Shown one piece after another: positions 52,693 to 59,258 of a DNA stretch of 64,000 nt (position 1 is the stretch's first letter; each line of letters starts with the position of its first letter). The notes below the pieces were generated by a model that saw nothing but the letters and a program-made list of their open reading frames with translations, was not told the DNA's origin and ran no database searches. Both the position numbers and the translations under genes were made by a program. Source of the stretch: Peptostreptococcaceae bacterium VA2 (GTDB lineage Bacteria; Bacillota; Clostridia; Peptostreptococcales; Peptostreptococcaceae); the NCBI GenBank assembly GCA_000686145.1, contig JMMB01000007.1:1488001-1552000 (forward strand), given 5' to 3'.

Positions 52693-54153
52693 ATGTATGA
52701 TATAGCAATAATAGGAGCTGGAATTAGCGGAAGTTCTATAGCTCGTGAACTATCAAAATATAATTTAAAAACTATAGTACTTGAAAAGGGAGTTGATGTA
52801 TGTCAAGGTACGACTAAAGCAAATAGTGCTATAGTGCATGGGGGATTTGACGCTAAAGAAGGTAGTTTAAAAGCAAAATTAAATGTAGCAGGAAATAAAT
52901 TGTACCCTAAACTTTGTGAAGATTTAAATGTAGAATTTAAGCAAAATGGTTCTTTAGTATTAGCTTTTAATGAAGAGGATGAAAAACATATAAAAGATCT
53001 TTATGAAAGAGGAATAAGAAACAATGTAGATGGACTTAAAATATTAAATAGGGAAGAAGTAATAGAAATAGAACCAAATATTAATAAAAATGTCATCAGT
53101 GCTCTTTTATGTGAGGTAGCAGGGATTGTTTGTCCATTTAATTTAAATGTAGCTCTTATGGAGAATGCAATAGAAAATGGTGCAGAGCTTCAAGTGCAAT
53201 CGAAAGTTATAGGGATTGAAAAAATAGATGATTATTTTGATATAAAGCTTTTAAATAAAGATAATATTAAATCAAAATATATTATAAATGCAGCTGGTGT
53301 TTATGCTGACAAAATAAACAACATGATAGGTGGGGATGAATACTTTATAATACCTAGAAAAGGTGAGTATAAAGTGTTAGATAAAAGTGAAGGTAAAATG
53401 GTAAATCATGTAATATTCCAATGTCCAACAGAAAAAGGAAAAGGTGTATTAGTTACAAAAACTGTTCATGGAAATTTATTAGTCGGACCAAATGCTACAA
53501 TAGTTGATAATGCTGAGGATATAACTACAACTAGAGACGGTATAAATGAAATCGTAGAAAACTCAAAGAAAAGTATAGAAAATATAGATTTTAGAAAAAC
53601 AATAACATCGTTTGGAGGAGTTAGAGCAACTCCTAATACTGGAGATTTTTGTATATTTGCATCAAATAAGTGTAAAAACTTCATAAATGTAGGGGGTATA
53701 GAATCACCAGGACTTGCATCGGCACCAGGTGTTGCAAAGTACGTAGTAGAATTACTGAAAAACGAAGGATTAATCCTAGTAGAAAAAGCAAACTTTAATC
53801 CAATAAGAAATAAAAACAAATCATTTGTAAAAATAAATAATGAAGAAAAAAATGCAATGATAAAAAATAATAAAAATTATGGAAAAATAGTATGTAGATG
53901 TGAAAGTATTACAGAAGCTGAAATAATAGATGCAATAAATTCTACTTGTGGTGCTAGAACTGTAGATGGAGTAAAAAGAAGAGTTAGACCAGGCATGGGA
54001 AGATGCCAAGGTGGATTTTGCGGACCTAAAGTAATAGAAATAATAGCACGAGAGTTGAATATGAGTATAGAAGATGTATTAAAAGATTACGAAAAATCAA
54101 ATATGGTAGTAGGAAAAGTAAAAGAGTTAAGGGGTGAGTTAGTTGAAATATAA
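52693..54153 (+). CDS. glpA: FAD-dependent glycerol-3-phosphate dehydrogenase-like protein with BFD [2Fe-2S] domain
   Basis: 486 residues. DAO-type oxidase fold with FAD motif IAIIGAGISGSSIARELSKY and GVDVCQGTTKANSAIVHGG; the C-terminal BFD domain has GKIVCRCESITEAEI and RPGMGRCQGGFCGPKVIEI, ligands for [2Fe-2S]. This GlpA-like layout is followed by the GlpB-like gene (11-base overlap) and a DUF1667 gene, a set that oxidises glycerol 3-phosphate to dihydroxyacetone phosphate in anaerobes. GGAGGT upstream. Confidence 0.9.
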   Translation: MYDIAIIGAGISGSSIARELSKYNLKTIVLEKGVDVCQGTTKANSAIVHGGFDAKEGSLKAKLNVAGNKLYPKLCEDLNVEFKQNGSLVLAFNEEDEKHIKDLYERGIRNNVDGLKILNREEVIEIEPNINKNVISALLCEVAGIVCPFNLNVALMENAIENGAELQVQSKVIGIEKIDDYFDIKLLNKDNIKSKYIINAAGVYADKINNMIGGDEYFIIPRKGEYKVLDKSEGKMVNHVIFQCPTEKGKGVLVTKTVHGNLLVGPNATIVDNAEDITTTRDGINEIVENSKKSIENIDFRKTITSFGGVRATPNTGDFCIFASNKCKNFINVGGIESPGLASAPGVAKYVVELLKNEGLILVEKANFNPIRNKNKSFVKINNEEKNAMIKNNKNYGKIVCRCESITEAEIIDAINSTCGARTVDGVKRRVRPGMGRCQGGFCGPKVIEIIARELNMSIEDVLKDYEKSNMVVGKVKELRGELVEI

Positions 54154-55388
54154 TGTAGTAGTAGTAGGAGGAGGACCTGCAGGTCTTGGAGCAGCAGTAG
54201 AAGCTAAAAAAAATGGTGCAAAAGATATACTTATAATAGAAAGAGATAGAGAATTAGGTGGAATATTAAACCAATGTATTCACAATGGATTTGGATTACA
54301 TGAATTTAAAGAAGAACTGACAGGTCCTGAGTATGCTCATAGATTTATTGAAATGGTAAAAGAAGAAAATATAGATTATATGCTAAATACTATGGTACTT
54401 AATATAAATGAAGATAAAACTATAGAAGCTTTAGGAGAATATGGTTTAATAAATATAGAAGCCGATGCAATAGTTTTTAGCAATGGGATGTAGAGAAAGA
54501 ACAAGAGGTGCTATAGACATACCAGGATACAGACCTAGTGGAGTGTATAATGCAGGTGCAGCTCAAAGGCTTAGTAATATGGAAGGTTATATGGTAGGAA
54601 AAGAAGTAGTGATATATGGTTCTGGTGATATTGGGCTTATAATGGCTAGACGTATGACTCTAGAAGGTGCTAAAGTTAAAGCAGTAGTTGAAGTTAACCC
54701 TCATTCAAGTGGATTAACTAGAAATATAGTACAATGTTTAAATGACTTTAACATACCATTAATGCTAAGTACAGGTATAAGTTATATACATGGAAAGCAA
54801 AGGGTTGAAGGTGTTACTCTTTCGAAACTTGATGAAAACAGAAGACCAATAGAGGGAACAGAAGAATTTATAAAATGTGATAGTGTACTTTTATCAGTAG
54901 GTCTTATACCTGAAAATGAATTAAGTGTTGAAGCGGGTGTTAAGCTAGATATTAAGACTAGTGGACCAATAGTTAATAACTCAATGATAACTAATATAGA
55001 TGGAGTGTTTGCTTGTGGAAATGTTGTTCATGTGCATGATTTAGTAGACTTCGTTACAAAGGAAAGCAGAATAGCAGGGAAAAATGCTGCACTTTATTCT
55101 TTAAATAAATTAATACAAAATGATACAGTAAGTACAATAGCAAATGATGGAATTTCATATATAGTTCCTCAAAACATAGATACAAAATGTGAAGAAGATA
55201 TAAATCTATTTATGAGAGTTAGAGCTATTTACAAAAATAAAAAATTAGTGGTAAGAAGTAATGATAAAGTTATATTAGAAAAGAAAAGGCTTCATATGAT
55301 ACCATCTGAAATGGAAAATATAAAAATAAGTAAAGATTTATTTAAAGATATTACAGGAAATATAACTGTAAGCGTTGAGGAGGTTTAA
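54143..55388 (+). pseudogene. GlpB-like FAD/NAD oxidoreductase, +1 frameshift in a T5 run
   Basis: TTG start within the end of the glpA-like gene, AGGGGTGA upstream. First frame: VVVVGGGPAGLGAAVEAKKN, NQCIHNGFGLHEFKEEL to ADAIVFSNGM and stop at 54493. The continuing frame begins MGCRERTRGAIDIPGYRPSG and has the second nucleotide motif VVIYGSGDIGLIMARRMTLE, DSVLLSVGLIPENELSVEAG and IDGVFACGNVVHVHDLVDFV. With four T at 54474-54478 the protein would read IVLAMGCRERTRG, the normal family sequence. One extra T breaks an otherwise complete gene of about 415 codons. Confidence 0.9.
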
Positions 55389-56519: not shown

Positions 56520-56718
56520 GAAAGTTATGCAAAATAGATAAAATCTATTTTGCATAGCTAAAACATAGATAAAAACTATTTTAAGAAAAATGTCGAATGT
56601 AGTAAACTGATAAAGTGAAGGATAATTTGAATTATTGAAATTATCTTAAAATTAAGTATCTTATGATGCGTGTATCATTTGTACTAATTACGCTTATAAA
56701 AATCAGAGAGGAGAAAAG

Positions 56719-57661
56719 ATGAGAAAAAAAGTTAGTATATTATTGCTTACATTTTCATTTATGCTTTCGATACTACTAGTTGGATGCAATTCGAAAAAAA
56801 TTAACAATGAGGAACAATTCAATGAAAGTGAATACAAAAATGTAGAGTATTTTATTACACCACAGGAATTAAATAAAATTATAGGTAGTAAAGATATTAT
56901 ATTATTAGATTGTAATAAACCTGATGTATATCAAAAAAAAACATATACCAGGTGCTGTTAACATCGGAATTCATGCTTTTTCAGACATATCAAATAAAAT
57001 AGGAGATCCAGGGTGGGGAACTATTTTAGACAAAGCTAAATTACAAAATAAAATGGAAACATTAGGAATTGATAATAGCAAAACAGTAGTATTTTATTCT
57101 GATGTATTTAAAGGTCCAGGCGCAGATGGAAGAGCTGTATGGCAGTCTAAAGTTGCAGGGCTTGATAATGTGAAAATGTTAGTGGGTGGACTAAGTTACT
57201 GGCAAGATTTAGGGTACGAAACTACTGATAAAGTGTCAAAAGCAACATCTACTAAAGGGTTAGAGTTAAAGGATTACGATACGAGTTACATAGCTACAAA
57301 AGAATATGTAAAAGAAAACTTAGTAAAACAAGTTATTATAGATGTTAGAACAAAAGGTGAATATGAAGGTTCTCAAAAAGTAGGAGAGCCAAGAGGTGGG
57401 CATATAAAGGGTGCTATAAATATGCCGTGGTTAGAACTTTTAAATGATGATGGAACCCCAAAAGATAAAGAAGAAATCAAAAAAATTATGGCATCATTAG
57501 GTGTTAAACCAGAAGATGATTTTGTACTATACTGAACTATGGGTATTAGATCTGGCTATGCAGCCATGATCCTCAAAGCAGTTGGCTTTGAAAATGTTAA
57601 AAATTATGAAGGATCTATATACGAATGGGGTGGAGATTCTAGCCTTCCTATGGAAAAATAG
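56719..57661 (+). CDS. Two-domain rhodanese lipoprotein; candidate selenoprotein (TGA at catalytic Cys), A9 frameshift
   Basis: ATG with GAGGAG upstream; lipobox LLVGC (Cys about 23). First rhodanese domain FITPQELNKIIGSKDIILLD, then YQKK; an A9 run (56933-56941) shifts the frame, and with A8 it would continue HIPGAVNIGIHAFSD. Second domain: YIATKEYVKENLVKQVIIDV, RGGHIKGAINMPWLELL, DDFVLY, then TGA (57533-57535), then TMGIRSGYAAMILKAVGFEN and GSIYEWGGDSSLPMEK to TAG at 57659. TGA replaces the active-site Cys of the C-x-x-G-x-R-S loop, which suggests selenocysteine. The frameshift may be sequencing error, slippage or decay, so expression is not certain. Confidence 0.72.
57536..57574 (+). promoter_or_regulatory. 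Candidate bacterial SECIS stem-loop after the TGA
   Basis: Right after TGA: GGG (57541-57543) can pair with CTC (57572-57574), GATC (57549-57552) with GATC (57568-57571), and GGCT (57554-57557) with AGCC (57562-57565), closing loop ATGC about 23 bases after the TGA. The paired codons GCC, ATC and CTC are rare in this AT-rich genome. Position and size fit bacterial SECIS elements. Confidence 0.6.
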
Positions 57662-57691: not shown

Positions 57692-57733
57692 ATTTAAGCC
57701 CTACATTTATATCTATAAATGTAGGGCTTAAAT
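57692..57733. terminator. Perfect 20-bp inverted repeat after the rhodanese gene
   Basis: ATTTAAGCCCTACATTTATA and its exact reverse complement, separated by TC. Confidence 0.85.
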
Positions 57734-57858: not shown

Positions 57859-58515
57859 TTGAGTATACTTAGTTTGAAAAATATAAAATATTCATTTGGA
57901 AATACAGATATCTTAGAGGGGATAAACTTAGATATAAATAAAGGTGACTGTATTTCTATAGTAGGTAAATCAGGATCAGGAAAAAGTACATTATTAAAGT
58001 TGTGTGCAGACTTAGTAACACAAATAGAAGGAGAAATCATATATAATGGAAAAAATTATAATACTTACAATCCAATTGATCTTAGAAAAAATATAAGCTA
58101 CTGTGTACAGCTACCATATCTGTTTGGAGATAATATCTGTGATAACTTAGAATATCCATTCAAAATAAGAAAAGATAAAATAAATAAATTGAAAATAAAA
58201 GAATATTTGAATAAATTCAACTTGGATGAAAGCTACTTACAAAAAGATATAAATTCATTATCAGGTGGGGAAAAGCAAAGAATAGCACTTATTAGAAATT
58301 TAATATATACACCAGATATATTGCTTTTAGATGAAGTTACCTCTGGGTTAGATTATCAAAATGCTAAGTTAGTTGAAACTTTAATTAAAGAAATGAATGA
58401 AAGTGGTGTTACCGTAATTTGGATAACACATAATCTAGAGCAAAGTGAATCTATATTTAATAAAAGGATTTGCATTGAAGAAGGAAAGATAATTAAAGAG
58501 GAGATATTTAAATAA
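57859..58515 (+). CDS. fetA: ABC transporter ATP-binding protein, FetA/YbbL-like
   Basis: 218 residues from TTG at 57859 with GGAGGT upstream; the longer open frame has no site. Walker A GKSGSGKST, Q-loop YCVQLPYLFGD, signature LSGGEKQR, Walker B ILLLDEVTSGLD, H-loop ITHNLEQSE. It overlaps the permease gene by one base. FetAB of Escherichia coli exports iron and protects from oxidative stress; the assignment relies on the partner permease. Confidence 0.82.
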   Translation: MSILSLKNIKYSFGNTDILEGINLDINKGDCISIVGKSGSGKSTLLKLCADLVTQIEGEIIYNGKNYNTYNPIDLRKNISYCVQLPYLFGDNICDNLEYPFKIRKDKINKLKIKEYLNKFNLDESYLQKDINSLSGGEKQRIALIRNLIYTPDILLLDEVTSGLDYQNAKLVETLIKEMNESGVTVIWITHNLEQSESIFNKRICIEEGKIIKEEIFK

Positions 58516-59258
58516 TGGAAACTATTTCACTAACAATAGCATCGATTTTAATCATCATACCTATATTTATATCACATAAGGAAAAATTGGGATTAGAGAA
58601 AGAAATAATTATAAGTATGCTCAGAGCAATAATTCAGTTAATAATAGTTGGGTACATATTAGAATTTATATTTGGAATGGAAAATCCTATATTTACACTT
58701 TCACTAGTTTTAATTATGATAATTAATGCTGCTTTAAATACTAAAAAAAGAGGCGAAGGAATAAAAAATTGTGAAAAAATAGCTTTTATAGCAATAATAT
58801 CAGGAACAAGTATTACATTGTTTGTATTAGTTATTTCTAAGGCTATACATTTTGTTCCAAATGAAATTATACCAGTAGGAGGGATGATAGTTAGTAATTC
58901 CATGGTAGCTATAGGCCTAGCATACAGAAACTTAAATACTAGTTTCAAAAATAGAAGAAATGAAGTAGAAGTTAAATTATCACTAGGAAGTGATATAAAT
59001 GACGCATCGAAAGAGATAATAAAAGATAGTATAAAAATGGCAATAATACCAACTATAGACTCAGCAAAGACATTAGGAATAGTATCTTTACCAGGAATGA
59101 TGACAGGACTTATATTAGGTGGGGTATCTCCTATTATTGCAATAAAATTTCAAATCATGGTTACGTTCATGATACTATCATCGGTCTCTATAGCAGTAAT
59201 AATAGCAGTATATCTAGCATATAGAGATTTCTTTAATCAAAGAAAGCAACTTAAATAA
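58515..59258 (+). CDS. fetB: ABC transporter permease, FetB/YbbM family (UPF0014)
   Basis: 247 residues, about six to seven helices. Family segments: MLRAIIQLIIVGYILEFIF, IPVGGMIVSNSMVAIGLAYR, KMAIIPTIDSAKTLGIVSLP and PGMMTGLILGGVSPIIAIKF. Together with the ATPase it forms a probable iron exporter. Confidence 0.88.
   Translation: METISLTIASILIIIPIFISHKEKLGLEKEIIISMLRAIIQLIIVGYILEFIFGMENPIFTLSLVLIMIINAALNTKKRGEGIKNCEKIAFIAIISGTSITLFVLVISKAIHFVPNEIIPVGGMIVSNSMVAIGLAYRNLNTSFKNRRNEVEVKLSLGSDINDASKEIIKDSIKMAIIPTIDSAKTLGIVSLPGMMTGLILGGVSPIIAIKFQIMVTFMILSSVSIAVIIAVYLAYRDFFNQRKQLK

Follow-up and report, generated by a model that had tools for sequence, protein, structure and literature searches.

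Selenocysteine (Sec) is not new to the rhodaneses. Rhodanese-related sulfurtransferase selenoproteins (COG2897) were described from the Sargasso Sea in 2005 (PMC1088965), and a UxxG rhodanese is listed as "form 4" in a 2026 catalogue (PMC13188914); deep-Sep (PMC12013277) makes no mention of rhodanese. We analyzed a stretch of 64,000 nucleotides from Peptostreptococcaceae bacterium VA2, positions 1488001–1552000 of its contig C7 (hereafter, the window), in which a tandem rhodanese gene contains an in-frame TGA. A first-pass annotation had proposed that this TGA encodes Sec, a reading that is strongly supported by the Sec genes, by the TGA in all 20 close copies and by a conserved stem. We consider it very probable that the TGA is read as Sec in a tandem-domain rhodanese lipoprotein and that Sec is its single catalytic residue. 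Like the marine proteins, the protein would carry Sec in a rhodanese-related sulfurtransferase with the motif UxxG, here U-T-M-G. Unlike them, as far as a comparison by motif and description goes, it belongs to a lipoprotein subfamily of one Clostridia order and some Fusobacteria and has a two-hairpin element behind the TGA. The Sec rhodanese as a kind is therefore known, whereas the lipoprotein subfamily (Clostridia, Fusobacteria) and its two-hairpin element appear to be new, although an earlier mention is possible.

The gene and the features described for it lie on the + strand. A probable ribosome-binding site, AGGAG (56709–56713, read from the sequence), precedes the start codon (ATG, 56719) by 5 nt. 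The start of the gene (56719–56961) encodes a signal peptide with the lipobox LLVGC and the beginning of the first rhodanese domain, and the remainder (56942–57661, in the frame of ORF 56924–57661) contains one TGA, at 57533–57535, where the second rhodanese domain would have its catalytic Cys. Read through, this frame gives ...PEDDFVLY-TGA-TMGIRSGYAAMILKAVGFENVKNYEGSIYEWGGDSSLPMEK-TAG, with TMGIRSGY directly after the TGA and 41 sense codons before the real stop codon, TAG (57659–57661), exactly as the earlier annotation had it. Standard gene calling stops before the active site, so that a conserved exported selenoenzyme would be taken for a rhodanese that is truncated or inactive. A long perfect inverted repeat without a clear T-run (57693–57732), probably a transcription terminator, was also seen 3′ of the stop codon.

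The Pfam model Rhodanese (PF00581) spans the TGA in two stretches (E = 1.7e-29; 102.7 bits against a gathering cut-off of 22.2 bits), and in alignments the residue encoded by the TGA falls on the catalytic "YC" of the thiosulfate sulfurtransferases of solved structure 1uar, 3p3a, 8k55, 3aax and 3hwi, in agreement with the placement first suggested for it, the active-site Cys of the C-terminal domain. An AlphaFold2 model of the congener's protein (pLDDT 90.4, pTM 0.85) gave thiosulfate sulfurtransferases of mycobacteria and Thermus as its best PDB matches. The layout is that of the tandem-domain TST/MST proteins, i.e., two rhodanese domains with the catalytic residue in the second and a matching fold. 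CysA2, CysA3 and SseA of Mycobacterium and the Thermus rhodanese (PDB 3hwi, 3aax, 3hzu, 1uar) share the fold, the tandem domains and the C-terminal catalytic position (Foldseek E about 1e-21 to 1e-23, query TM-score 0.73–0.78), but they have Cys in place of Sec and are only 25–31% identical. No NCBIfam model scored above its cut-off. The 3-mercaptopyruvate sulfurtransferase model NF008557 gave 93.5 bits, below its curated cut-off of 250. Rhodanese domains are also found in TsoB (NF045694), NF041203 and ExtH (NF040901), the first two of which are described as (seleno)proteins; the protein is a member of none of them, with 28.3 bits against a curated cut-off of 805 for TsoB, 26.9 bits against a curated cut-off of 115 for the rhodanese-related (seleno)protein NF041203, and a score in the range of 26.9–28.3 bits against a cut-off of 200 for ExtH.

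A signal peptide and a lipobox Cys are present in all 18 full-length Sec copies, where the lipobox was called by pattern and also guided the choice of start; the lipobox supports the earlier description of the enzyme as surface-anchored. The closest comparison within the genomes is provided by Cys lipoprotein rhodaneses (for example, locus L015 of the window's genome), which likewise have a lipobox, two rhodanese domains and the loop CTxGIRS. They differ from the Sec protein in carrying Cys, in being about 40% identical to it, in forming a separate clade and in having no hairpins after the Cys codon. Genomes with both the Cys and the Sec version offer a natural comparison of what selenium contributes to extracellular sulfur transfer.

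We compared homologs in samples of the genus (3 genomes), the family (71), the order (394 sampled) and the class (391 sampled). Among the matches listed, one TGA was present in each homolog with at least 60% identity and none in those at about 47% identity or below. A TGA copy is likewise present in two Fusobacteria, which came from a separate collection. The resulting Sec set comprised 20 copies from 19 genomes (17 of the order and 2 Fusobacteria), including that of the window and, in one genome (G039), a second, partial copy. The TGA is kept in all 20 copies, and in each of them TMGIRSGY follows and the frame ends 41 codons later. Twenty-four more distant homologs or paralogs have Cys at the site. 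The alignment with close homologs, which had been suggested as a check for sense codons other than Cys, thus gave TGA in the close copies and Cys in the distant ones. No reversion to Cys was seen inside the Sec clade, no further Sec copy was found in the class-wide sample of 391 genomes, and the plasmid collection held only relatives below 60% identity. A tree built from the 18 full-length Sec proteins and 24 Cys proteins separated the two sets by one branch with a support of 100/100.

The ratio pN/pS was 0.22 for the 41 codons after the TGA and 0.32 for the 41 codons before it, indicating that the tail is translated and constrained. This ratio is difficult to reconcile with a UGA that acts as a real stop, such that the protein ends before the active site and the hairpins behind the codon (described below) act on mRNA stability or termination. 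Hairpins close to stop codons can affect mRNA stability or termination. However, a pN/pS of 0.22 is not expected of a 3′ untranslated region, and the 41 codons encode the catalytic loop along with conserved sequence of the rhodanese family in each copy; we regard a real stop as extremely improbable.

The window's own copy is complicated by a frameshift. A run of nine adenines (A9, 56933–56941, + strand) shifts the frame by +1, so that the ORF from 56719 runs out at 56961 in the assembly and lies in a different frame from the TGA-bearing part. The run is A8 in both congeners (G001 and G002), in which the N-terminus encoded by 56719–56961 is in frame with the rest of the gene. A neighbouring FAD/NAD oxidoreductase-like gene is split into 54143–54493 and 54483–55388 by an extra T at 54474 (T5 run), and the same gene forms a single frame of 414 aa in G001. 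Because the two homopolymer insertions (the A9 run and the T-run at 54474) lie close together, assembly errors are suggested, and the A9 frameshift is probably an assembly indel; alternatively, it may be a true mutation, phase variation or slippage. It has no bearing on the subfamily, the other full-length copies of which are open. With an in-frame TGA and a +1 frameshift both in this copy, the gene could also be taken for a pseudogene, with a nonsense mutation at the TGA and further damage at the A9 run. However, the TGA is common to the otherwise open copies of all 19 genomes, the tail is under purifying selection, the hairpins are conserved, and the lack of the A9 frameshift in the congeners, together with the split neighbouring gene, points to the assembly; a pseudogene is therefore very unlikely. 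Both the pseudogene and the plain stop were rejected for the subfamily since the TGA is kept across copies and the tail is under purifying selection.

Two further observations concern the Sec copies. The codon preceding the UGA (57530–57532 in the window) is UAC in 20 of 20 copies; that is, not only the Tyr but also the choice of its codon is invariant, which may matter for the UGA context. G039 (contigs C3 and C23; loci L030 and L048) apparently has its second Sec rhodanese copy at a contig end, and its two copies are nearly identical 3′ of the TGA.

Selection on synonymous sites has kept a structured RNA element after the TGA. The first-pass annotation had described one stem-loop there; this stem-loop is real (57549–57571), but it does not stand alone, as a stronger second hairpin lies directly 3′ of it (57573–57591). 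The two hairpins of this SECIS-like element (+ strand) were found by RNAalifold in 16 distinct sequences. Hairpin 1 has 9 bp with one bulged base and a 4-nt loop, and hairpin 2 has 7–8 bp and an invariant G at the loop, which is AGUUG in the window's copy. Standard pairs occupied 97.3% of 256 pair cells, a level reached in none of 500 shuffles, and the covariation score was 0.209 compared with 0.03–0.08 for slid registers. Conservation of the downstream stem had been named as a check, and the stem is indeed kept, with compensatory changes: the pair 57553/57566 is UA, AU or CG (four mismatches in 16 sequences), and the pair 57556/57563 is AU, UA or CG (one mismatch in 16 sequences). In both pairs, one side is a third codon position and the other a first position. 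In some single-sequence folds, a lower helix UGGG/CUCA (57540–57543 with 57572–57575) joins hairpin 1; it competes with hairpin 2, and as the consensus fold favours hairpin 2, it was not retained.

The folding of the 57 nt after the TGA was compared with synonymous-codon shuffles that kept the protein and used the codon frequencies of the window. The z values were −3.0 to −6.0 in 20 of 20 Sec copies and −2.4 to +2.0 in the 24 Cys homologs under the same test, where one genome's codon frequencies were applied to all copies, which calls for caution in relatives of higher GC. Hairpin 1 alone gave a mean z of −3.33 (significant at 5% in 18 of 20 Sec copies) and hairpin 2 alone a mean z of −5.75 (20 of 20), while Cys copies were near zero for either hairpin. 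A covariance model of the element matched only Sec rhodanese genes in the 71 genomes searched; this is a check of specificity rather than an independent proof, as the model also holds coding sequence. An Rfam search of the region returned only matches below gathering scores. The codons GCC, ATC and CTC, pointed out earlier as unusual, are rare in the long ORFs of the window (3.1% of Ala, 4.0% of Ile and 0.7% of Leu codons, respectively), and GGC is likewise rare there (4.8% of Gly).

A search of the 3.58-Mb genome for selA, selB, selC and selD, again a check proposed beforehand, found all of them. SelA (618 bits against a cut-off of 268), SelB (353 against 242) and SelD (390 against 125) are encoded, selD with its own in-frame TGA, and a tRNA-Sec with the anticodon TCA (selC) was found; the four genes all lie inside 2.633–2.643 Mb of contig C7. 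Since SelA is over the cut-off in 67 of the 71 genomes of the family, having the machinery is not in itself discriminating; the conservation of the site is. The machinery nevertheless bears on a reading of the UGA by a near-cognate tRNA, which would insert Trp, Cys or another residue and need no selenium. Low-level readthrough of UGA exists in bacteria. However, the complete Sec machinery is present, the site is that of the catalytic Cys, and the structured element is confined to the TGA copies, so that near-cognate readthrough is scarcely credible as the explanation.

Insertion of Sec in bacteria has been modelled with a bSECIS element, a stem-loop just 3′ of the UGA with a stem of 4–16 bp, an apical loop of 3–9 nt, an accepted distance from the UGA of 16–37 nt and an expected loop G; a subset of known elements fails this model (PMC13188914). 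Both hairpins have stems and apical loops of such sizes. Hairpin 1 is 22 nt from the UGA, within the range, but its loop is of the AUGC or AUAC type in most copies and does not supply the loop G in the consensus fold. Hairpin 2 has the loop G in 20 of 20 copies, with the loop G(U/G)(U/G), which becomes AGUUG on loss of the closing pair; however, it lies about 45 nt from the UGA along the sequence, outside the range. Neither hairpin by itself satisfies all of the bSECIS constraints. In this genome, the TGA of selD is followed by a hairpin, GCCAGA-GGU-UCUGGC, whose loop type hairpin 2 resembles. We tentatively suggest, without placing much confidence in the idea, a two-part Sec insertion signal, in which hairpin 2 would carry the SelB-type loop G beyond 16–37 nt and hairpin 1, when folded out, would shorten the effective distance. 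Hairpin 2 would then be the target of SelB, brought near by the folded-out hairpin 1, and the element might represent a bacterial SECIS class of its own; the enzyme it serves would be a selenium-dependent, exported sulfurtransferase, which in some genomes accompanies a Cys version. If the two-hairpin element is a real signal, it is an example of a SECIS that works outside the published distance rule, and it would aid searches for missed selenoproteins.

With Sec as the preferred reading, we propose that the double-hairpin element (57549–57591) would recruit SelB with Sec-tRNA(Sec) and that the UGA would be read as Sec. The protein would be exported and its lipobox Cys lipidated, placing the enzyme on the outer face of the membrane. 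The selenolate of the CxxGxR-type loop may take sulfane sulfur from a donor (thiosulfate, persulfide, polysulfide or 3-mercaptopyruvate), and an enzyme-Se-S intermediate may pass the sulfur to an acceptor. A sulfur-carrying intermediate on a single residue is a step of rhodanese chemistry. Cys is strongly conserved at just two columns of alignment A2, that of the lipobox and the Sec/Cys site; because there is no other conserved Cys, a one-residue ping-pong is likelier than a disulfide-type redox cycle. Judged by homology, sulfane-sulfur transfer is the activity that we somewhat favour.

The neighbourhood allows another assignment. A gene for a VTT-domain (DedA/TVP38-like) membrane protein lies directly upstream in most relatives, a second VTT-domain gene lies downstream in several relatives, and several loci contain a CCG/4Fe-4S protein, an ArsP-type permease or a small thioredoxin. 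DedA-rhodanese domain fusions are known, with a purpose that is unclear (PMC10127716), and a reference cited in that paper connects a DedA protein with resistance to selenite. The VTT/DedA and CCG/4Fe-4S neighbours hint at a process at the membrane that handles sulfur or selenium. The selenoprotein might, for this reason, have a different job, acting on selenium, tellurium or arsenic oxyanions or on metals at the membrane, as its neighbours in relatives include VTT/DedA proteins, a small thioredoxin and an ArsP-type permease accompanied by an ArsR-like regulator, and as the selenite resistance would fit. However, this neighbourhood varies among genera, and the genus of the window lacks it: there, the VTT gene is not adjacent and genes for an ABC ATPase and a UPF0014 permease lie downstream. 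The fold and active-site loop, moreover, are of the sulfurtransferase type; we consider a different job rather unlikely and retain sulfur transfer as the more likely activity.

Two further observations concern nearby loci. The ABC ATPase and UPF0014 permease genes (57886–59258 in the window) are largely deleted in congener G001 (locus L074), where a remnant of 71 aa fuses the start of the ATPase to the end of the permease. At locus L055, a rhodanese-VTT fusion is encoded about 2–3 kb upstream of the Sec rhodanese TGA; it has Asn at the catalytic Cys position (YSNLGIRSG) and may be catalytically inactive.
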